Virus record (IMG/VR): IMGVR_UViG_3300050821_002540
Coordinates: 1 to 64,000 of that record
Length of the DNA: 64,000 nt
DNA from: a virus
Strand: one strand, 5' to 3'
The number at the start of each line of letters is the position of its first letter. Positions within the stretch are counted from its first letter, which is position 1. Of the stretch, positions 714 to 41,726 are shown piece by piece. The notes under the pieces were generated by a model. It was not told the origin of the DNA. It worked only from the letters and a program-made list of their open reading frames with translations, and did not search any database. Position numbers and translations under genes: made by a program.

Positions 714-839
714 TTCTCCTGGCTATCTAGTTCTCTGGCAACCAGCCAAAGAACTCCAGTCTAGTTCTCCTGGCTATCTAGTTAGCCTGGAATTTGGAAC
801 CCAAATTCCATCTAGTTCTCCTGTTTTTGTTAACAAAAA
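714..839. repeat. 51-bp-period direct-repeat array, each unit holding a different palindrome
   Basis: TTCTCCTGGCTATCTAGTT occurs at 714-732 and 765-783, exactly 51 bp apart. Its first eight bases recur 51 bp later at 816-823. TCTAGTT recurs at 726, 760, 777 and 811, again at 51-bp offsets. Each unit encloses a different inverted repeat: GTTCT/AGAAC with inner CTGG/CCAG in unit 1, TGGAATTTGG/CCAAATTCCA at 788-797/801-810 in unit 2, and TTTTTGTTAACAAAAA at 824-839 in unit 3. The array is AT-rich compared with the GC-rich stretch at 1-440, and lies next to the leftward primase operon. I infer a possible replication origin or partition site. Confidence 0.75.
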
Positions 840-1612: not shown

Positions 1613-3583
1613 TCACTTTTCCATAGCCTCCCACCCCTTTTCAGTGACAGTATGCCACGTTGTCTTGCCCCGTACAGGCTCCGTACGTGCAACGAAACCG
1701 GCGTCAATTGCAGCCTTTCGGATAGCCGCGCGGCGGTTCTTGTCGCCACCAATCAGGGCATCAAACTCAACGCCAGAGTACCTACCATCCTCTCCACCAT
1801 CACCCTTTAGTGCAAGGGCACGAAGCCCCTTCATTGCGTCAGGCACCACTCGCGGCCGTACAATGCCATCAGCAGACACCTCTACAACAAGCGAGCCTGG
1901 CTCCGTTCCAGACGAGGTACATGACAGGATTCCAGCTGCGCGGGTACCTGGCAGCTCACCACCAGAGCACCCCATTCGCACGGAACCAGGGCGGTCTTTT
2001 GTCAATGTAAGGTTGCTCCATCCAGAGACTCCTACACCGATTGGCTCGACATTCTCAACAAGATATGACGCACCATTCACCACGTTGAGCTTCATGACGC
2101 CACCCATTGCGTACCTGGAGCCACCTACCGAGGCAGCCTCTTTTGTCACATGGTCAGTGGCAATTGTACACACACCCCGGCCAAGCAGTGGGCGCACTAG
2201 GGCAGACCGGAACGCCGTTGCTGAGTCATTGTCCTTGACAGCCCAGCCGAACACCCCATACGCAGCAGTGACCCCATTGTGTATGACAATATCGGGGCAC
2301 CATGACACACACGCTGCCATGACATCCATAGCAGACCCTCGCGAGTCGGGTGTGGCAAACATGAACAGGTCCTCATCACCAAGCAGCGAGGCATCAAGTC
2401 CTGCGTTAAGGAGGCGGTTGCCACAGTCACCACCGTCACCCTCTTCCCAGTCAATCCATATGACTGACCGGCCCCGCGACAGCGATTCCTTCACTAGCCA
2501 CACAAGCAGCATGTCCTTGCCAGACTCTGTCTCACCATAGACAGTATGCTCCTTGCCAGCGTAGAACAGGCACTGTCCATCACCACGCTCACCATACACG
2601 GGCACGGCACGCGTGTACGTGCCATCGATGACGCCACTGAAGTTGAACCACACCGACGACTCGTCGTCACCCAGCTCACTACCATTGTCGGCATCACCAT
2701 CGGCACCACCCAGCTCTGAGAGCCTGGCTCCGGGAGTGTGACGCCAGCCACCCGTTGGGATGGCAGCACCAGCAAGGCCAGCACGGTCCCATGGGTCCGT
2801 GCTATCCCATGAGCGGAGCTGTCCACGGAGCACAGCAAGCTCAAGACAGTCAACAACCTCCTTGTCGCGCATGCCACGGTCATGAGCATCACGTGCCCAG
2901 GCAAATATGGCACCCCTCTGAGCACCAGAGCCAGCCGAGAGCACCTCTGACCACAGCCCACCAGCATCCGCCACCTCACTACCACTAGCCACCCCAGCAG
3001 CGGACGGGTGGGAGGCACGGTACATGGACAGGACCTCAGCGAAATGTCCTACAGGAGACAGCTGGCGGTTGCTGCCTACCCACTGGTAAGCACGGCCAGA
3101 AGGGTGCCGTGAGGGGGCAACGCCAATGAAGCCATTGGACTTGACCTGGCCACCTGGTATGTCACCCTGGCGTGGCCAGCCTGATGCCTCCAGCCCCCTG
3201 GCGTCATACAGGTGGTGCTCACCACCATCCCGGCCAGTGCGTGAGGAAACGTACTCTGGCTCATCAACATCCCACTGTTCCCATACAGATGGGTGGTCGA
3301 TGTCGCACACGAGCAGGCCTGAGCGCGGAGAGGTGATGAGCCCAACACGAGACCCGGCCCTCCACTCGTCAATTGACCGGTGAGACTCACGCTCCACAGT
3401 CGCGTATGACCAGCCAGCCTCATAACAGGGCATCTTGTTGCCATTGTATGAGCGCCATGGGATGGGCCAGAAGCCAGCGTCCAGGTACTCATGGGCGGCA
3501 GAGCGACAGTCAAGTCCAGAGACATCTGGCACAATGAGCGGGGGCTTTACGCCGCGCCCGCGCGGGGGTATACTCGGTGGCAT
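1613..3583 (-). CDS. Bifunctional primase-polymerase with RecA-like ATPase domain
   Basis: 656 residues. The N-terminal half is an archaeo-eukaryotic (Prim-Pol) primase: LLVCDIDHP (about residues 90-98) supplies the D-x-D metal site, followed by GGEHHLYD (about 120-127) and GFIGVAPSRHPSGRAYQW (about 151-168). After a linker comes a RecA/RepA-type ATPase with Walker A GETESGKD (about 350-357, Asp where Ser/Thr is usual) and a later IVIHN strand. The C-terminus looks like a winged helix (ALIGGDKNRRAAIRKAA). Start 3583 is preferred because AGGAGG sits five bases upstream; 3604 and 3643 are in-frame alternatives. It probably primes and unwinds phage DNA at the origin, possibly the nearby repeats. 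The stop lies at the edge of the GGGTAGG array. Confidence 0.85.
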   Translation of the reverse strand: MPPSIPPRGRGVKPPLIVPDVSGLDCRSAAHEYLDAGFWPIPWRSYNGNKMPCYEAGWSYATVERESHRSIDEWRAGSRVGLITSPRSGLLVCDIDHPSVWEQWDVDEPEYVSSRTGRDGGEHHLYDARGLEASGWPRQGDIPGGQVKSNGFIGVAPSRHPSGRAYQWVGSNRQLSPVGHFAEVLSMYRASHPSAAGVASGSEVADAGGLWSEVLSAGSGAQRGAIFAWARDAHDRGMRDKEVVDCLELAVLRGQLRSWDSTDPWDRAGLAGAAIPTGGWRHTPGARLSELGGADGDADNGSELGDDESSVWFNFSGVIDGTYTRAVPVYGERGDGQCLFYAGKEHTVYGETESGKDMLLVWLVKESLSRGRSVIWIDWEEGDGGDCGNRLLNAGLDASLLGDEDLFMFATPDSRGSAMDVMAACVSWCPDIVIHNGVTAAYGVFGWAVKDNDSATAFRSALVRPLLGRGVCTIATDHVTKEAASVGGSRYAMGGVMKLNVVNGASYLVENVEPIGVGVSGWSNLTLTKDRPGSVRMGCSGGELPGTRAAGILSCTSSGTEPGSLVVEVSADGIVRPRVVPDAMKGLRALALKGDGGEDGRYSGVEFDALIGGDKNRRAAIRKAAIDAGFVARTEPVRGKTTWHTVTEKGWEAMEK

Positions 3584-3655
3584 AGGTGCCTCCTGAATGG
3601 TCATGGCAGCCTTTCTGGGGTAGTGGGAGTGGGGCCGTGGCATGGCCCCACTGCC

Positions 3656-3868
3656 TTAACCATGTGCGGAGCGTGGCCGGGAACGGCTGATGTGGTACTG
3701 AAGCTCTGCTATGGAGCAGAAGTCAGCACCGCACTTGCAATGAGTAATGGTGCCTACACGCCTTGCATAAGCAAGCCTGTTGCTTGCGCTAATCATGTCC
3801 TTTGTCTCCTGGGACAGCTTGTGGCCACGGGGACGGCCACGGGGACGGCCAGTTGGCTTGTACGGCAT
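3656..3868 (-). CDS. AT-hook / NUMOD3-like protein with a zinc finger
   Basis: 70 residues, first gene of the leftward operon, with GGGAGG before the ATG. In order: a double AT-hook (TGRPRGRPRGHKL, residues 6-18) encoded by a repeated DNA segment; a NUMOD3-like motif (HKLSQETKDMISASNR), which is the DNA-binding module of homing endonucleases; then a C2H2-like finger with CKCGADF, L and H at the usual spacing. No nuclease domain is present, so it is either a stand-alone DNA-binding regulator or the remnant of a homing endonuclease. Its place at the head of the primase operon favours a regulator. Confidence 0.75.
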   Translation of the reverse strand: MPYKPTGRPRGRPRGHKLSQETKDMISASNRLAYARRVGTITHCKCGADFCSIAELQYHISRSRPRSAHG

Positions 3869-3899
3869 GATGCCTCCCGGTGAGAGGTGAGGGTTTAAT

Positions 3900-3974
3900 C
3901 CTACCCTACCCGCGAGCGCGCGTCTACCCCAGAAATCAGCAGGACTTTACGCAGCCCCGGCGGCCGGGTAGGCT
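3900..3974. promoter_or_regulatory. Divergent control region between the leftward and rightward operons
   Basis: Between the starts of the leftward operon (3868) and the rightward leader. Two overlapping CCTACCC words (3900-3911) match the array at 1513-1612. A rightward -10-like TAGGCT (3969-3974) is followed by the GC palindrome CCCGGCCGGG, as in the other promoter cassettes, but the upstream hexamer 17 bp away (TTTACG) does not match their consensus. GCGAGCGCGCG at 3912-3922 is a further near-palindrome. Promoter positions are inferred. Confidence 0.45.
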
Positions 3975-6845: not shown

Positions 6846-7039
6846 TGCAGATCTCGAAAAGGTGCCCTTCATGCACGAAGACATTCGTGATTGAGGTGCC
6901 GGACAATGAGTTTGAGGCATGGCAGGGCGGTGTCCTCATCCAGAACGCAATGCCGAGCGTCCCAGCCGATGTTCGTGAGCAGCTCGTTTCCGGCATCGAC
7001 TCCAAGTGCTGGGATGAGATGTTTAGCGAGGCCGAGTAA
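6845..7039 (+). CDS. Small zinc-binding protein, common in actinophages
   Basis: 64 residues. CPSCTKTFVIEVPDNEFEAW, then a stretch ending in QLVSGIDSKCWDEMF. This pattern (CxxC, AWxxG, and a late C-W-D) is one I recognise as a frequent conserved hypothetical of actinophages. Role unknown. Translationally coupled to the preceding gene, and followed by two strong hairpins. Confidence 0.75.
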   Translation: MQISKRCPSCTKTFVIEVPDNEFEAWQGGVLIQNAMPSVPADVREQLVSGIDSKCWDEMFSEAE

Positions 7040-7045
7040 ACAGCG

Positions 7046-7099
7046 GGGCGGCCGGGCAACCGGCCGCCCTCTGTCGTAGGGGCTGGAACCATCCAGCCC
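7046..7099 (+). terminator. Two tandem perfect hairpins
   Basis: First stem GGGCGGCCGG/CCGGCCGCCC (7046-7055/7060-7069) with a GCAA tetraloop; second GGGCTGGA/TCCAGCCC (7080-7087/7092-7099). No U-tract follows either, so they may be processing or stabilising elements rather than simple terminators. The same two-stem plan recurs at 7307-7360. Confidence 0.55.
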
Positions 7100-7115
7100 T
7101 GACGATGGAGGCGAA

Positions 7116-7298
7116 ATGTTTATTGTCATCACCACCAGCCCAAGTGACTCACCGGAAGACATTGATGAGTACTACGGCCCGTTCGCAACCGCAACGGATA
7201 CAGGCGACAGCCTGACGGATGCCGTCACCTGGATGAACAAGTGGGTCCAGGCACCGGTAACCGCACGGGCAATCGATCTGTTCCAGCCCTCCAACTGA
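7116..7298 (+). CDS. Hypothetical protein
   Basis: 60 residues beginning MFIVITTSPSDSPEDIDEYYG, followed by FATATDTGDSLTDAVTWMNKW. No family is recognised. It has the extended ribosome site GGAGGCGAAATG and sits between two double-hairpin elements, so it may be a separately processed message. Confidence 0.6.
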   Translation: MFIVITTSPSDSPEDIDEYYGPFATATDTGDSLTDAVTWMNKWVQAPVTARAIDLFQPSN

Positions 7299-7306
7299 AC
7301 ACAGCG

Positions 7307-7360
7307 GGGCGGCCCTGCTCAAGGGCCGCCCTCTGTCCCGGTGGCTGGACTCCAGCCACC
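7307..7360 (+). terminator. Second pair of tandem hairpins
   Basis: GGGCGGCCCT/AGGGCCGCCC (7307-7316/7322-7331) and GGTGGCTG/CAGCCACC (7340-7347/7353-7360). Same spacing and the same flanking word CTCTGTC as the 7046-7099 pair, with compensating changes in the stems, which suggests selection for structure. Confidence 0.55.
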
Positions 7361-7375
7361 AGGATGGAGGCGAGA

Positions 7376-7729
7376 ATGGGAACTGACCAGGGTGGATTCA
7401 CTGGCCGTACAAAGAGCGAGCCAGGATTCCACTACCACAACGGGAATGCGTACCTTGACCAGGAATGCGCTTGCGAGCTGCGCCCGGCAACCATAGACAA
7501 TGTGAAGGCACACGCCCTGAAGCACTACGATGAGGGCGGCTGGGACGTTGTCGTCGAGACAATGTCCGACAAGAGCATCCAGGAGACGCTCCTGATGATG
7601 GATGCGGGTGGCCACGACTTCACGGAGCCGTGCATCACCCTCAAGGACGCGACCGAGCACTCACTGCTCCGGGTGCTCGTAAGCATCTGGTCTGACCAGC
7701 AGGCCGACGCCAGAAACAGCGCGTTCTGA
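7376..7729 (+). CDS. Hypothetical protein
   Basis: 117 residues with an acidic, His-containing sequence (FHYHNGNAYLDQECACELR). No domain recognised. Start 7376 is fixed by GGAGGCGAGAATG. Its stop overlaps the next start (TGATGG). Confidence 0.65.
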   Translation: MGTDQGGFTGRTKSEPGFHYHNGNAYLDQECACELRPATIDNVKAHALKHYDEGGWDVVVETMSDKSIQETLLMMDAGGHDFTEPCITLKDATEHSLLRVLVSIWSDQQADARNSAF

Positions 7730-16916: not shown

Positions 16917-17762
16917 ATGGAAACCACTCAGACAGTCCTGCTCAGCCATCTCCACCCGAACCCAGCCAACCCCCGCGTGGAAGCTGGGGATGTAACTGAT
17001 CTTGCCCTTTCAATCAGGGAACAGGGCATAGTACATGACATCCTTGTCCGTCCCTCTCCTGAATTTGGAGTGGGCCACTTCGTAATTGAGGATGGATTCC
17101 GGCGCTGGGTGGCGGCCGAGGGTAACGCGAGGATGGGGCTAGGTCCTGAGACAGTTCAGGTACGCATCCGGTCGCTGAAGCCAGGCGAGAATTATGCCGT
17201 GCGCGAGGTTGTTACATCACTCGTAACAACAATCCATCGTACTGACCTCAGGGCAATGGAGAAGGCACACGCATTCGAGGCCCTGATGAGGGAGACCGGC
17301 AAGAACCAGTCGGAAGTTGCCAGGATGATTGGCGTGAATTCCAGTACGGTAGGTCGGTACCTTTCACTTCTGGAGCTAGCGCCACAGGCACAGAAACGAG
17401 TGTCCGATGGAACACTCAGCGTAGAGGACGCAATAGATGCGGTTATTAAGCATCGAGCAAAGGCAAGGAAGGACAAGGGACAGGCTGCAGTTGACCCTGG
17501 CTGGGAGCCACTCTACCTCGCGAAGACGCACCCTCTTGCAAAGAAGGCTCGAACAATGTGCGATGCCAGGGAGCATAATAATCGCCGTCGCCTAGATGGC
17601 GTAGCCTGCGGGCAGTGCTTCGAGACTGTTATACGTCAGGACCAGAGCACAGTAGACAGGATGGAGTACAATGAGGCTTTCAAGAATGCCGGACTCAGCG
17701 TCCCATTCACCGCTCCAATCTTCCTGACCGGCGAGGATGCCAGCAAGAATGGACAGCCATGA
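16917..17762 (+). CDS. ParB-like DNA-binding protein
   Basis: 281 residues. LHPNPANPRVEAGD, LALSIREQGIVHDILVRP and IEDGFRRWVAA are the ParB/Srx nucleotide-binding domain, where GFRRW replaces the usual G-E-R-R. NQSEVARMIGVNSSTVGRYL (about 123-142) is the helix-turn-helix. The C-terminus carries a Cys pair (VACGQC) after AREHNNRRR. No ParA lies nearby and no canonical parS was seen, so it may regulate transcription or organise phage DNA rather than partition it. ParB-like CTPase activity is likely from the family but not proven here. Confidence 0.8.
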   Translation: METTQTVLLSHLHPNPANPRVEAGDVTDLALSIREQGIVHDILVRPSPEFGVGHFVIEDGFRRWVAAEGNARMGLGPETVQVRIRSLKPGENYAVREVVTSLVTTIHRTDLRAMEKAHAFEALMRETGKNQSEVARMIGVNSSTVGRYLSLLELAPQAQKRVSDGTLSVEDAIDAVIKHRAKARKDKGQAAVDPGWEPLYLAKTHPLAKKARTMCDAREHNNRRRLDGVACGQCFETVIRQDQSTVDRMEYNEAFKNAGLSVPFTAPIFLTGEDASKNGQP

Positions 17763-17893
17763 GGCCGCACAGGTTTAATCCTGACCAGCGCGTCTCGACT
17801 GGTGAGATTTGCGTGTGCGGAGGGTCAAGAAACTACCGGGCACATCAGCCTTGGTGGTGGCTCATTCTGAACAGGAAGAAGTGGTGGAGATGA
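17759..17893 (+). CDS. Small Trp- and Arg-rich protein
   Basis: 44 residues. It has a CVCGG motif and the C-terminus PWWWLILNRKKWWR, cationic and Trp-rich, so membrane or nucleic-acid contact is possible. The start overlaps the ParB stop and its end overlaps the glycosyltransferase start (ATGA). Confidence 0.5.
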   Translation: MRPHRFNPDQRVSTGEICVCGGSRNYRAHQPWWWLILNRKKWWR

Positions 17894-18696
17894 AGGACAA
17901 CGTATACATCGTGACGCGGGACCGGCTCGACAACCTGGAGAAGATCATACCACGCTGGCTGGAACAGTACTTCTATGTCACACTGGTAATCGAACATTCC
18001 GAGTACATGAAGCACGATGCCCTCATCCGTGGCATGGGCGTTTATGATGATATTGCAATAATCAGCCCAAAGGCGGAAAATAAGGGCATCGGTCATGCCC
18101 GGAAGTATGCAGTTACAAATGCCTGCCTTCGCGGGCTGCGGTCATTTATTATGTCTGATGATGATCTCCGTCCGCACAAGGACTCGGTGATGGCCGACCT
18201 GGTAAAAGAAGCTGAAAAGCCAAATGTCCTTGGCATCGGGGCGACAAGGCCGCTACATGACAGGTTCTCGCACAACATGACGAGGGACCGGGATGATGTC
18301 ATTATATGTCCTGGTGGCTGGGGCATGCAGGTCTTTGCGCTGAACGTCAGGAACACAGTCGATGTCGGCAACTTCAACCCTCGCCTTGACTGCTGGGGCG
18401 AGGATCACGAGCTGATGCGTGACGGGATTGTTTGTGGCTTCCCCTGGCTCGTACACTGTGGAGTGAAGTGTGAGCCTATCGGGGTGCGCTATGATCCTGG
18501 TGGCCTACACTCGTACATCGGCAAGGGTAACAGGTCAGAGCGCGAGTTGGAGTGTCGTAAGCTCATCTATGAGCGCTGGGGGAATTACGTAAGCAAGCCT
18601 GACAAGAGGCCGCGTACAGCATGGGCCAGAATGATGGATGAATACATTCCTAACTGGCGTAGCAAGTCAGCAATCCACGGCGGTGAATGGCAGTAG
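17890..18696 (+). CDS. TET-associated-type glycosyltransferase (GT-A fold)
   Basis: 268 residues; start 17890 by overlap with the upstream stop. VYIVTRDRLDNLEKIIPRW at the N-terminus, KGIGHARKYAVTNACLRG (about 65-82), the metal-binding SDDDLRP (about 89-95) and DCWGEDHELMRDG (about 167-179) match the order of motifs in the glycosyltransferases found next to TET/JBP genes in phages, which are thought to sugar-coat oxidised or otherwise modified DNA bases. No TET/JBP gene is in the window, so the acceptor could be another modified base or a protein. Confidence in glycosyltransferase is high, in the subfamily moderate. Confidence 0.75.
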   Translation: MKDNVYIVTRDRLDNLEKIIPRWLEQYFYVTLVIEHSEYMKHDALIRGMGVYDDIAIISPKAENKGIGHARKYAVTNACLRGLRSFIMSDDDLRPHKDSVMADLVKEAEKPNVLGIGATRPLHDRFSHNMTRDRDDVIICPGGWGMQVFALNVRNTVDVGNFNPRLDCWGEDHELMRDGIVCGFPWLVHCGVKCEPIGVRYDPGGLHSYIGKGNRSERELECRKLIYERWGNYVSKPDKRPRTAWARMMDEYIPNWRSKSAIHGGEWQ

Positions 18697-28474: not shown

Positions 28475-29683
28475 ATGGCAACTCAGAAGCCCGATGGTAG
28501 CTGGGACATCAGCGATGAGGAAGCTCGCCAGATCAACGAAATCTCAGAAGCCGAGTCACAGCAACGTCACGATCAGTACGTGAGGAACAACATGGACGAT
28601 CCGCTCGACCTTGTATTCAGGTCGATAGTACACAACCACACGCGTAGTGATGGATGTGGCGTAAACTGCCCAATGTACCTGAAATTCAATCACGATAAGA
28701 CTCACGTCACGGGGTGCGGTCCTGGCTGTGTGTCATGGTTCTACCTATCGCCTCAAGTTGAAGAGGCAACCTTCCTGTCAGAACCTCCAGAAGAGCAGAC
28801 CAGGGAGGTGGTCAGGTGGGCGGATGAGGCAATGTTCGTTGCCAAGCCGCTTACACCAGACACAGATGGACAGCTTAGGCCGGAAGTTACAATCATTCAT
28901 ATGACGGCCGACCCGCTCCGGGTAATGGCGGCCGCAGCACAGATGTATGAGGGCGATCCCGTCTATAGCCCAAATGACATACCTCGCCGCCTAGCTGAAG
29001 AATGGCTCAGGAAGACTCTTGCCCATAATTATCCGGCACCTCTTGAATTTGTCGATATCCACTTCATGATCAGGAACGTTACCAGGGCATTTACACACCA
29101 GATGGTCCGACAGAGGCAGGCGGTGTACATTCAGGAATCGCTACGCTTCGCCGTCAAGGAGAATGCCGCAATGGAGGTTGTAATGCCTCCTAGCATCTCA
29201 CATCTGTCAATCGATGATCCACGGCGTGTAGAATGGGAGAAGGCAGTTAGGGAGATTGGTGACTCATACAATGCACTTATCAATACGGGTATTCCGGCCG
29301 AGGATGCCCGTGGCCTACTCCCTACCAACATTGGGACCAGTCTCCATTACAAGACAAACCTGCGCATGCTCCGGGAGCACTCAGGGAACCGGCTGTGCTC
29401 CCAGGCCCAGCACGAGTGGAAGCTAGTATGGGGCGAGTTCATCAAGGCCATACTCAGCTACGGCCCGGCCAGTCAGAGGTGGCAGCAGAAGCTCATCGCG
29501 AGTATGTTCAAGCCGATCTGCTACCAGACTGGCAAGTGTGAGTACCCGCTCCCAATGGGACGGTACTGCGCCATCCGTGACATGGTAGATGCCCACCACT
29601 ACGCCGGTGACACGCCTGAGTCATGGACTGACATCAACCCGCTCGTCCTCCTGCATCCAGAGGTGGCTCGTCGTGCCCAGTGA
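28475..29683 (+). CDS. thyX: ThyX-type flavin-dependent thymidylate synthase with N-terminal extension
   Basis: 402 residues; family members are usually about 220-250. The ThyX core starts near residue 135: MIRNVTRAFTHQMVRQRQAV (about 198-217) and YIQESLRF (about 218-225) hold the R-x-R-x7-S signature, here RQR instead of RHR. The extra 130 N-terminal residues have Cys-rich pieces DGCGVNCPMY and GCGPGCVSWFY, possibly a zinc site. It would make dTMP from dUMP with FAD and methylenetetrahydrofolate. The RQR variant and extension make a changed activity on modified nucleotides worth testing. GTAGGAGGGA precedes the ATG. Confidence 0.85.
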   Translation: MATQKPDGSWDISDEEARQINEISEAESQQRHDQYVRNNMDDPLDLVFRSIVHNHTRSDGCGVNCPMYLKFNHDKTHVTGCGPGCVSWFYLSPQVEEATFLSEPPEEQTREVVRWADEAMFVAKPLTPDTDGQLRPEVTIIHMTADPLRVMAAAAQMYEGDPVYSPNDIPRRLAEEWLRKTLAHNYPAPLEFVDIHFMIRNVTRAFTHQMVRQRQAVYIQESLRFAVKENAAMEVVMPPSISHLSIDDPRRVEWEKAVREIGDSYNALINTGIPAEDARGLLPTNIGTSLHYKTNLRMLREHSGNRLCSQAQHEWKLVWGEFIKAILSYGPASQRWQQKLIASMFKPICYQTGKCEYPLPMGRYCAIRDMVDAHHYAGDTPESWTDINPLVLLHPEVARRAQ

Positions 29684-38139: not shown

Positions 38140-38251
38140 CGGCGGCCGATCCTCAGTGAGTTAGAGGTGGATACACCGTTTCACCGGGAGTAGAACTGGA
38201 GAGCTACTCAGTCCGGAAGCAGAGTGAGGATGGACGGGCCACCCGCCGCCG
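38140..38251 (+). ncRNA. Candidate structured RNA, about 112 nt
   Basis: Nested long-range pairing: CGGCGG/CCGCCG (38140-38145/38246-38251) and ATCCTCA/TGAGGAT (38149-38155/38225-38231), enclosing hairpins GGTG/CACC with a GATA loop (38166-38177) and GAGTAG/CTACTC (38188-38193/38204-38209). No protein frame fits. It is preceded by an AT-rich stretch with no recognised promoter and followed by three hairpins. A regulatory or antisense RNA is possible. Confidence 0.5.
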
Positions 38252-38253
38252 TC

Positions 38254-38349
38254 GGGGCCAGGTAAAGCACTACCTGGCCCCCGGCCCCAGGGAGTGCGTG
38301 AGACTCCCTGGGGCCTAAGCCCCCAGGAGGAACAAAGCCTCCTGGGGGC
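38254..38349 (+). terminator. Three tandem perfect hairpins
   Basis: GGGGCCAGGTA/TACCTGGCCCC (38254-38264/38271-38281), then a 13-bp stem (38283-38295/38303-38315), then GCCCCCAGGAGG/CCTCCTGGGGGC (38319-38330/38338-38349), all perfect. They separate the candidate RNA from the gene at 38372. None has a T-tract. The third holds an AGGAGG that is sequestered in the stem. Confidence 0.65.
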
Positions 38350-38371
38350 CTCTCCATTTACAGGAGGAATC

Positions 38372-39756: not shown

Positions 39757-41726
39757 TCCGAGTTCCTTATCGTCACCGGGCTGATGTTCCTATTGCTGAC
39801 CGATACAGACGCAGATGAATTGCTCACTTCGACTGATCCTGCTAGTGACTGAGTTACCGTCACCTGTCCAGGGAACTGCGATGCCCCGAGTGTAAAGACA
39901 AATACGTCAGCCCCAGCTCCGCTATCCAGGAACGCCACCGGCATGCTGTATGTCAGCAGTTCAGTGCCTGAGCCACTATCAGACAGAACTACTGGGATGT
40001 TGAATAGCAGGGACTCGGTACTGACACCAGAGTCAGTCAGGGCAACCAGTGAGGACAGGCCAAGTACGTCTGTCCCAGCACCAGAGTCAGCTAGCAGTAC
40101 AGAGCTAGTGATCTTCAGGCTATCGGTGCCTGTGCCAGAGTCAGCTAGGACAATTGGTGTTACCGACAGTACTGAGAGTGTGTCAGTACCAGAGCCAGAG
40201 TCAGTGAGCGCAACTGGCTGGGCAGATACAATTGTAAGTACGTCAGTGCCAGTGCCGGAGTCCGCTAGCCCTGGGATCATGCCGAGCGCGTCGGTACCCG
40301 TTCCGGCGTCCGCGAACGGTACCCCCGCCAGGACGCCTAGAACGTCCGTAGCCGCGCCGGAATCCCCTAGGGAGGGGAGGATACCTAGCGCGTCCGTTCC
40401 CGTCCCTACGTCGCTTATAGAGACGCCTACGGCTACTGCGAAAACGTCCGTCCCCGCCCCGGTATCGGACATGGTGACCGGGGTAACACTGAGCACGGCC
40501 AGGCTGTCAGTACCAGTACCTGAGTCAGTGAGGCCAGGCATAACACCGAGCGTATCGGTACCAGCACCAGTATCCGTCAGGGCCGTCGGCTGGACAACAG
40601 CCAGCACATCTGTGCCAGCCCCAGAATCAGCTAGTGACACTACAGAGGTGACCGCAAATGTCTCTGTGCCAGAGCCAGAGTCGGTGAGCGGCGTCGGCTG
40701 AACAATCGCGAGGGCTTCTGTGCCTGACCCGGAGTCAGTAAGTGCTACTGGTGTGACTGACAGCACAGCCAGGGAGTCGGTGCCTGTACCCGAGTCTGTT
40801 AGCCCTGGCATGACGCCCAGGGCATCTGTCCCAGAACCAGAGTCCGTAAGCGCTGTCGGCTGGGTTATAGCCAGGACTTCTGTCCCGGTACCGGAGTCAG
40901 CTAGCGGTACTGTTGAGGTTACTGCCAGTGTCTCGGTACCGGATCCAGAGTCGGAAAGCTGTATCGCCGAGGAAGCAGCCGTTACCTGAACCGGAAGGAA
41001 CTGCTGGTGATGGAACTTTTCAGTCCATGTCCTACCAGGCATTACCTGCTGTGGCAACTGGATTGTTACAGGACCACTAGATAGCTTGAACGCTACAAGT
41101 AGCAGGCCCCATGTAGCGGCGCCAGAGATGGCCCATGACAGGGACTCAGTCCCACCCGTACTATTGCCATAGGCAGTAGCTAGCTGGGCAGCACTATTTG
41201 AACCTGAGTTCTTTAGTGGTGTGTATCCAGTCTCTGTATATGTAGTGGAGTAACCGGCATCACCAACAGAGGCAAGCAGGAACTCATTTGCTGCCGTAGA
41301 GCTGTATGCTGTACCGCCAGTTATGGTAGCCGGGGAGGCAGTACCAGTATTGTGTCCGGGAGACCCATCAAGCATTGACGTTGTATTACCAGCAAGCAGT
41401 CCTGACACTTCAAGCAGTACCGGGACCGACCCAAAGTTTGTCCCATTAGTGCAAGTTATTAGTGGTCCAGTTCCGACATCACCTGATGGGGTATCCATTG
41501 CCCAGATCGAGATACCGCCCTGAGCCGACTGGTAGGCAAGCAGCCCTACCTGCGTAAAGCTATTGAGCGCTGCATCCTTAACTGACGTTGGGGCGGTAGA
41601 GCTGCTTGAGTCCAGGGACACTATGGCAATAAGCTTGGACCCGGATGTAAGCGTGCCATATGTAGCCGTACAGTTTCCCGATCCCTGTACTGTACCCAGG
41701 ACAGACTGGAGGACCGTGTAGGCCAT
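39753..41726 (-). CDS. Tail-associated protein with 20 DSGSGT repeats
   Basis: 657 residues. An N-terminal domain (about 1-220, with SIWAMDTPSGDVGTGPLI and WGLLLVAFKLSSG) is one found in phage surface proteins. From about residue 257 to 630 come 20 short repeats of the form D-S-G-S-G-T-(E/D)-x-L-x-(V/I), 17-22 residues each: LTDSGSGTEALAI, LADSGAGTDVLAV and variants. A basic or aromatic tail follows. Probably an extended fibre or adhesin at the particle surface. The DNA for repeats 10-14 has a markedly different codon choice (see 40281-40470). Confidence 0.7.
   Translation of the reverse strand: MAYTVLQSVLGTVQGSGNCTATYGTLTSGSKLIAIVSLDSSSSTAPTSVKDAALNSFTQVGLLAYQSAQGGISIWAMDTPSGDVGTGPLITCTNGTNFGSVPVLLEVSGLLAGNTTSMLDGSPGHNTGTASPATITGGTAYSSTAANEFLLASVGDAGYSTTYTETGYTPLKNSGSNSAAQLATAYGNSTGGTESLSWAISGAATWGLLLVAFKLSSGPVTIQLPQQVMPGRTWTEKFHHQQFLPVQVTAASSAIQLSDSGSGTETLAVTSTVPLADSGTGTEVLAITQPTALTDSGSGTDALGVMPGLTDSGTGTDSLAVLSVTPVALTDSGSGTEALAIVQPTPLTDSGSGTETFAVTSVVSLADSGAGTDVLAVVQPTALTDTGAGTDTLGVMPGLTDSGTGTDSLAVLSVTPVTMSDTGAGTDVFAVAVGVSISDVGTGTDALGILPSLGDSGAATDVLGVLAGVPFADAGTGTDALGMIPGLADSGTGTDVLTIVSAQPVALTDSGSGTDTLSVLSVTPIVLADSGTGTDSLKITSSVLLADSGAGTDVLGLSSLVALTDSGVSTESLLFNIPVVLSDSGSGTELLTYSMPVAFLDSGAGADVFVFTLGASQFPGQVTVTQSLAGSVEVSNSSASVSVSNRNISPVTIRNSE
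40281..40470. other. CpA/TpG-poor island inside the repeat gene
   Basis: In 190 bp I count only two CpA or TpG dinucleotides, against about 30 in the preceding 190 bp, while the encoded repeat consensus stays the same. Codons are CpG-rich and avoid NCA and NTG. The left end of the window (1-440) has the same composition. Confidence 0.7.

Follow-up and report, generated by a model that had tools for sequence, protein, structure and literature searches.

An array of direct repeats and hairpins beside the replication operon of a soil phage, possibly an accessory replication element

Positions 714-839 of the phage DNA analyzed here (the window, 64,000 nucleotides that make up positions 1 to 64,000 of IMG/VR record IMGVR_UViG_3300050821_002540) hold an array of direct repeats and hairpins that is real and not a chance product. 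Its best single reading, which we put forward tentatively and with modest confidence, is that it serves the replication module as an accessory element, specific to its lineage, and is not the core origin. Hairpins that act in transcripts and an array of operators are close rivals to this reading. The core origin itself is likely to be found at 1508-1612, approximately 0.7 kb from the array, as judged from the position of iterons in relatives of the replication gene.

The array and its genomic setting

The 19-bp direct repeat TTCTCCTGGCTATCTAGTT is found exactly at 714-732 and 765-783, 51 bp apart, and a third, partial copy of 8 bp is found at 816-823 (13 bp at 811-823 if the preceding TCTAG is included), in agreement with the preliminary description of this DNA. 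Only one other exact direct repeat of at least 15 bp at a spacing of 20-120 bp exists in the entire genome, a coding tandem repeat with a spacing of 38 bp. In 200 random genomes generated with a third-order Markov model, the longest such repeat had a mean length of 11.4 bp and a maximum of 15 bp, compared with 19 bp in the real genome. The word TCTAGTT, which had been described as keeping the 51-bp period, indeed does so. On the given strand it has four copies genome-wide, at 726, 760, 777 and 811, all of them within the array, and the spacings of 34, 17 and 34 produce the register box-27-box-10-box-27-box. Together, the repeats, the partial copy and the four boxes span 714-823, and neither they nor the hairpins described below are assigned to a strand.

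We also observed a different palindrome in each unit, as had been claimed. Unit 2 contains a hairpin with perfect 10-bp arms and a 3-nt loop (788-810), unit 3 contains the perfect 16-bp palindrome TTTTTGTTAACAAAAA (824-839), and unit 1 contains a weaker, bulged hairpin at approximately 731-755. Two inverted repeats with arms of at least 8 are present in 624-850, compared with a shuffle average of 0.025. When the first two units are compared without gaps, their interiors are identical at 9 of 27 positions and their flanks at 24 of 24 (counted by eye), and CTGG...CCA at the hairpin base is kept in both interiors. The arms at 788-810 and 824-839 are Watson-Crick perfect, with no G-U pairs, suggesting a role at the level of DNA rather than RNA. 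Read on the minus strand, the order of elements is hairpin, CAGGAG AACTAGA, hairpin, AACTAGA TAGCCAGGAG AACTAGA, hairpin, AACTAGA TAGCCAGGAG.

The array is located in a 477-bp noncoding gap (373-849) with approximately 11 hairpins, between a rightward gene that ends at 372 and a leftward gene that ends at 850. Nowhere else in the genome are short inverted repeats as dense as in this gap, which on both strands folds far better than shuffled sequences (z-scores for RNA folding, -5.4 and -7.0). A perfect 38-bp palindrome that lacks a T run lies just past the stop of the rightward gene (381-418). A run of hairpins begins at approximately 454 with a GC-rich, terminator-like hairpin (454-482), a further terminator-like hairpin was detected at 538-570 by the terminator scan, and the array forms the AT-rich right end of this run. 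A second repeat block at 481-623 contains CAGACA seven times and CAGGCA six times; a single CCAGG core common to all three repeat blocks was considered and is not supported. No other 100 bp of the genome are as AT-rich as 791-890 (64% AT), a segment that extends from the array into the end of the neighboring gene. The description of the array as AT-rich holds in a relative sense only: measured in 50-bp steps, its AT content is 48-66%, compared with 43.9% on average for the genome. The second convergent junction of the phage, at approximately 39.47 kb, has no gap whatever.

Searches for relatives of the array were negative. No homologue of the locus was found by blastn in phages, the layouts of the 19-mer and boxes had no match in IMG/VR, and searches of IMG/VR and of genome contigs with the replication (Rep) and orphan proteins revealed no homologue of the locus either. 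Hairpins with CCTACCCTG in IMG/VR were considered as relatives of the array and rejected, as they are single hairpins on each of 15 unrelated contigs. An Rfam scan of the window returned two tRNAs only, and the array has no known structured-RNA match.

The source is a soil phage whose IMG/VR record is 73,693 bp long, most of which is covered by the window. The first and last 97 bases of the record are identical, indicating that the genome closes as a circle of 73,596 bp. It encodes the terminase, portal, protease and major head proteins of a tailed phage, along with DnaE, PHP, SNF2, PD-(D/E)XK, thymidylate-synthase and ParB-like proteins. The closest relatives of DnaE in named phages are those of mycobacteriophages such as Butterscotch and Troll4 (49%), and environmental contigs reach up to 65%. 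Synteny with the DnaE-related contigs is found mainly from 13.7 kb on, and no primase operon was found in the parts of these contigs that were examined.

Several other features of the genome were recorded. The rightward gene at 1-372 spans the record ends, starting from approximately 73.46 kb, and encodes an Ala/Lys/Pro-rich product from 15-bp tandem repeats of KPTAS type; an Ala/Lys/Pro-rich gene of related contig L018 (526-1032) resembles it in make-up, the likeness seen being one of composition. The gaps at 7020-7110 and 7295-7376 have a common cassette consisting of the hairpin ACAGCGGGGCGGCC...GGCCGCCCTCTGT, the hairpin GGCTGGA..TCCAGCC, GGAGGCGA and a start codon, and the two copies have similar arms and different loops. 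Three GC-rich hairpins with 11-13-bp arms stand in series at 38254-38349, covering approximately 100 bp, and CCAGAGTCA repeats with spacings of 54, 54 and 60 bp are found at 40027-40203 within a large minus-strand tail-like gene. The gene at 17809-18696 has a weak match to a TET-associated glycosyltransferase (E 4e-4, below the cut-off); with its companions, a thymidylate-synthase-like gene (28475-29683) and a ParB-like gene (16917-17762), it raises the possibility of modified DNA bases.

The replication operon and the predicted core origin

The leftward operon consists of four minus-strand genes. The first encodes a 70-aa AT-hook-like protein (3656-3868) and the second a 676-aa replication protein (1613-3643). 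These are followed by a 54-aa gene (1293-1457), which has an ATGA overlap with the start of the next gene, and by an orphan gene (850-1296) that encodes 148 aa when read from the start codon overlapping the stop of the gene upstream (the listed ORF is 850-1326, 158 aa). The orphan protein has no family match, and its structure model (pLDDT 46) predicts no fold. The array lies 3' of the 54-aa and 148-aa genes. The array belongs to the operon region beside which the preliminary description placed it, but these two small genes separate it from the primase gene.

The replication protein has an N-terminal Prim-Pol domain (PF09250, E 6e-11) followed by a RepA/RadB-like ATPase region related to AAA_25/RadB-like proteins of small plasmids and phages. 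We found no Pfam match to an SF3 helicase in this protein. Residues 602-676 have a winged-helix order of elements with a local pLDDT of 53-78 in a single-sequence model that is poor outside the C-terminus, and the C-terminus is therefore probably a winged helix.

Directly adjoining the stop codon of the replication gene, the segment at 1508-1612 contains six AGGGTAGG iterons in both orientations, which form three hairpins, and its DNA fold z-score is -7.0. We predict that this segment is the core origin, since iterons occupy the corresponding position at the 3' end of Prim-Pol/ATPase genes across the family. The earlier guess that the array is an origin therefore pointed to the right neighborhood but probably to the wrong element. 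The Prim-Pol/ATPase protein with its probable winged helix would bind the iterons at 1508-1612 and open the DNA. Two extra iteron words, CCTACCC at 3900 and 3905 (3900-3911), lie upstream of the operon, which suggests that the operon may be autoregulated. The cumulative GC skew has its minimum at approximately 2.5 kb, consistent with an origin here and confounded by gene orientation.

The family-wide position of iterons was examined in 80 IMG/VR loci (L065-L144) collected with a three-sequence profile, of which 28 remained after removal of near-duplicates. The score for repeat density used exact 8-mers within stretches of 200 or 250 bp and therefore undercounts iterons that contain mismatches. 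The strongest repeat cluster is found at the 3' end of the replication gene in 21 of the 28 non-redundant viral relatives, compared with an expected 7.7% (P ~3e-18). A control compared the Rep 3' end with every other ORF 3' end; the Rep end outscores all of the others in 21 of 28 loci, with a median index of 26.5 versus 5. Inverted repeats are 4.7 times denser at the Rep 3' end in the same set. The iteron word tends to differ from locus to locus, which, together with its position, is what would be expected of an initiator that has its own binding sites. The relatives of the replication gene are distant, with 18-33% identity in an alignment.

Among the sequences examined of the plasmids p-XQ-29-C and pKRAD02 and the phages Dagobah, Leaf and MinS1, each likewise has its top repeat cluster where the related gene ends, and the iterons of Hendrix and P8625 are found there as well. 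In Zuko the repeats are upstream of the gene, and Dulem virus 38 has none. At some loci, the iterons and hairpins fall inside the coding end. In the locus L070, the top cluster (ACTGGGTC, six copies, 3741-3940) lies approximately 610 bp beyond the replication-gene stop and not at the stop. These sequence comparisons point to a family-wide rule: the 3' end of a Prim-Pol/AAA_25-type replication gene is marked by hairpins and by an iteron word private to that locus. An AT maximum as a mark of all such origins is not supported (6 of 28 loci). To our knowledge, pRN1 in the literature is the only one of the origins named here with an experimental test. The relatives show no repeat excess 300-1300 bp beyond the Rep stop, the position that corresponds to 714-839, indicating that the array is no general part of such origins.

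Possible roles of the array

We tentatively favor the reading of the array as an accessory replication element because it is not a product of chance, because it overlaps the AT maximum, and because its operon region also contains the replication gene with the predicted iteron origin. A further reason is that the shape of its hairpins is kept and their sequence is not, as in the pRN plasmids, whose Rep proteins have the domain order that the phage protein probably has (PMC4234260). This retention of shape is the strongest clue to mechanism. We infer that the segment at 714-890 would supply the DNA that melts most readily in this genome together with short hairpins, whose shape and not sequence would matter, either for extrusion or for priming on the exposed strand. 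The AACTAGA/CAGGAG boxes, bound by some phage protein, would keep the hairpins in register. In its fullest form, fixed protein boxes framing shape-selected hairpins would constitute a structure-coded priming or opening element that cooperates with the iteron origin 0.7 kb away; this we consider rather improbable, and neither IMG/VR nor the loci examined yielded such a layout. The accessory reading has evidence against it, namely the relatives that lack both a repeat excess and a general AT maximum at the corresponding distance, the two genes that separate the array from the iterons, and the failure to find a homologue in the collections searched.

It is also possible, if somewhat doubtful, that the array and the rest of 373-849 act as hairpins in transcripts, where they would halt the converging transcription or shield the 3' ends of the two operons that face each other, with the direct repeats left as a by-product of duplication. 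The convergent gene ends, the dense hairpins with their strong RNA folding, the terminator-like hairpins at 454-482 and 538-570, and the presence of other hairpin-rich gaps at 7020-7365 and 38250-38350 are consistent with this explanation. However, the terminator scan detected no intrinsic terminator site (GC-rich stem plus T run) within 714-839, the other convergent junction manages without a gap, and terminators do not need exact conservation of boxes.

Less likely still, the TCTAGTT/CTCCTGG boxes could be operators that bind a phage regulator of the replication operon or of the facing gene, with the palindromes as extra dimer sites or incidental. Direct-repeat boxes in a fixed register that are found nowhere else in the genome would suit such a function, and the small orphan neighbors could encode the binder. 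Yet the site is downstream of both flanking genes, the scan found no promoter-like match inside it, no repressor-like protein was recognized among the proteins scanned, and a single regulator does not need palindromes of differing sequence.

That the array is itself the core origin is very unlikely. It combines direct repeats, palindromes and the AT maximum in the operon region of the replication gene, but it has only two full repeats, and both the six iterons of this phage and the strongest clusters of 21 of the 28 relatives are at the 3' end of the replication gene. We regard as highly improbable that the units are translated as tandem leader peptides, with the flanks serving as ribosome-binding and stop sequences. 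On the minus strand, a well-spaced AGGAG-AACTAG-ATG opens a 9-codon frame (782-811, MEFGFQIPG) inside the unit 2 hairpin, and the interiors are nine codons long with some residues in common. However, the frame of the other unit (CTG-EFFGWLPEN) lacks a standard start codon and is one base out relative to its box, there is no downstream gene for a leader to control, and the perfect palindromy would be left unexplained. Least probable of all is a partition site (as had been guessed), a recombination site or a mini-CRISPR with 24-bp repeats and 27-bp spacers, for which the direct repeats, the differing interiors and the ParB-like gene at 16917 might speak: that gene is 16 kb away, ParA (PF13614) is absent from the record (controls were positive), tyrosine integrase (PF00589) and serine resolvase (PF00239) are absent from the genome, and the interiors are palindromic, unlike spacers (that of unit 2 is a perfect hairpin), between only two full repeats.

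If the accessory reading is correct and the array is part of replication, then a single genome would show hairpins that keep their shape as their sequence drifts, a pattern previously seen between pRN plasmids. The by-product of this work, the family-wide iteron rule, is more useful than the array itself. Phages and small plasmids share a large family of Prim-Pol/RepA-type replication genes that has been poorly described, and the rule would make origins predictable in many of these phages and plasmids, including many phages for which we know of no mapped origin.

Comparison with known systems

The extended start-associated sequences of cluster K mycobacteriophages are intergenic, with conserved inverted-repeat parts and variable spacers (PMC3203893). 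They sit just upstream of start codons, whereas the array sits between the ends of two converging genes. The iteron origins of p-XQ-29-C, pKRAD02, Dagobah, Leaf, Hendrix, MinS1 and P8625 resemble 1508-1612 in having short direct and inverted repeats and hairpins at the gene 3' end, each with its own repeat word, and none has a second array like 714-839. The six AGGGTAGG copies at 1508-1612 fit the pattern of three or more direct repeats clustered where a Prim-Pol/AAA_25 gene ends, as the top cluster of the surroundings; the array does not fit it by position.

The origin of pRN1 has been delimited experimentally and lies 3' of a Prim-Pol/helicase/winged-helix gene (PMC4234260). The phage resembles pRN1 in the probable domain order of its Rep and in the hairpins that immediately follow the Rep gene, where the counterpart of the pRN1-type stem-loop is 1508-1612 and not 714-839. 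The pRN1 protein has an SF3 helicase and its origin lacks iterons, whereas the phage has a RepA/RadB-like ATPase and iterons. Among pRN plasmids, the flanks are conserved and the stem-loop sequence is not, and one mutation in the stem was tolerated only once symmetry had been restored (PMC4234260). The array is similar in that palindromy is kept, sequence changes and flanks are conserved; it differs in being an array approximately 0.8 kb from the Rep gene, in contrast to one large stem-loop.

The oriV of RSF1010 combines initiator iterons with the separate hairpins ssiA and ssiB, which are recognized by primase (PMC4234260). RSF1010 uses three separate proteins, and the likeness seen to 714-839 is one of layout. 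By analogy, ssiA and ssiB offer a possible model for how the array could work.
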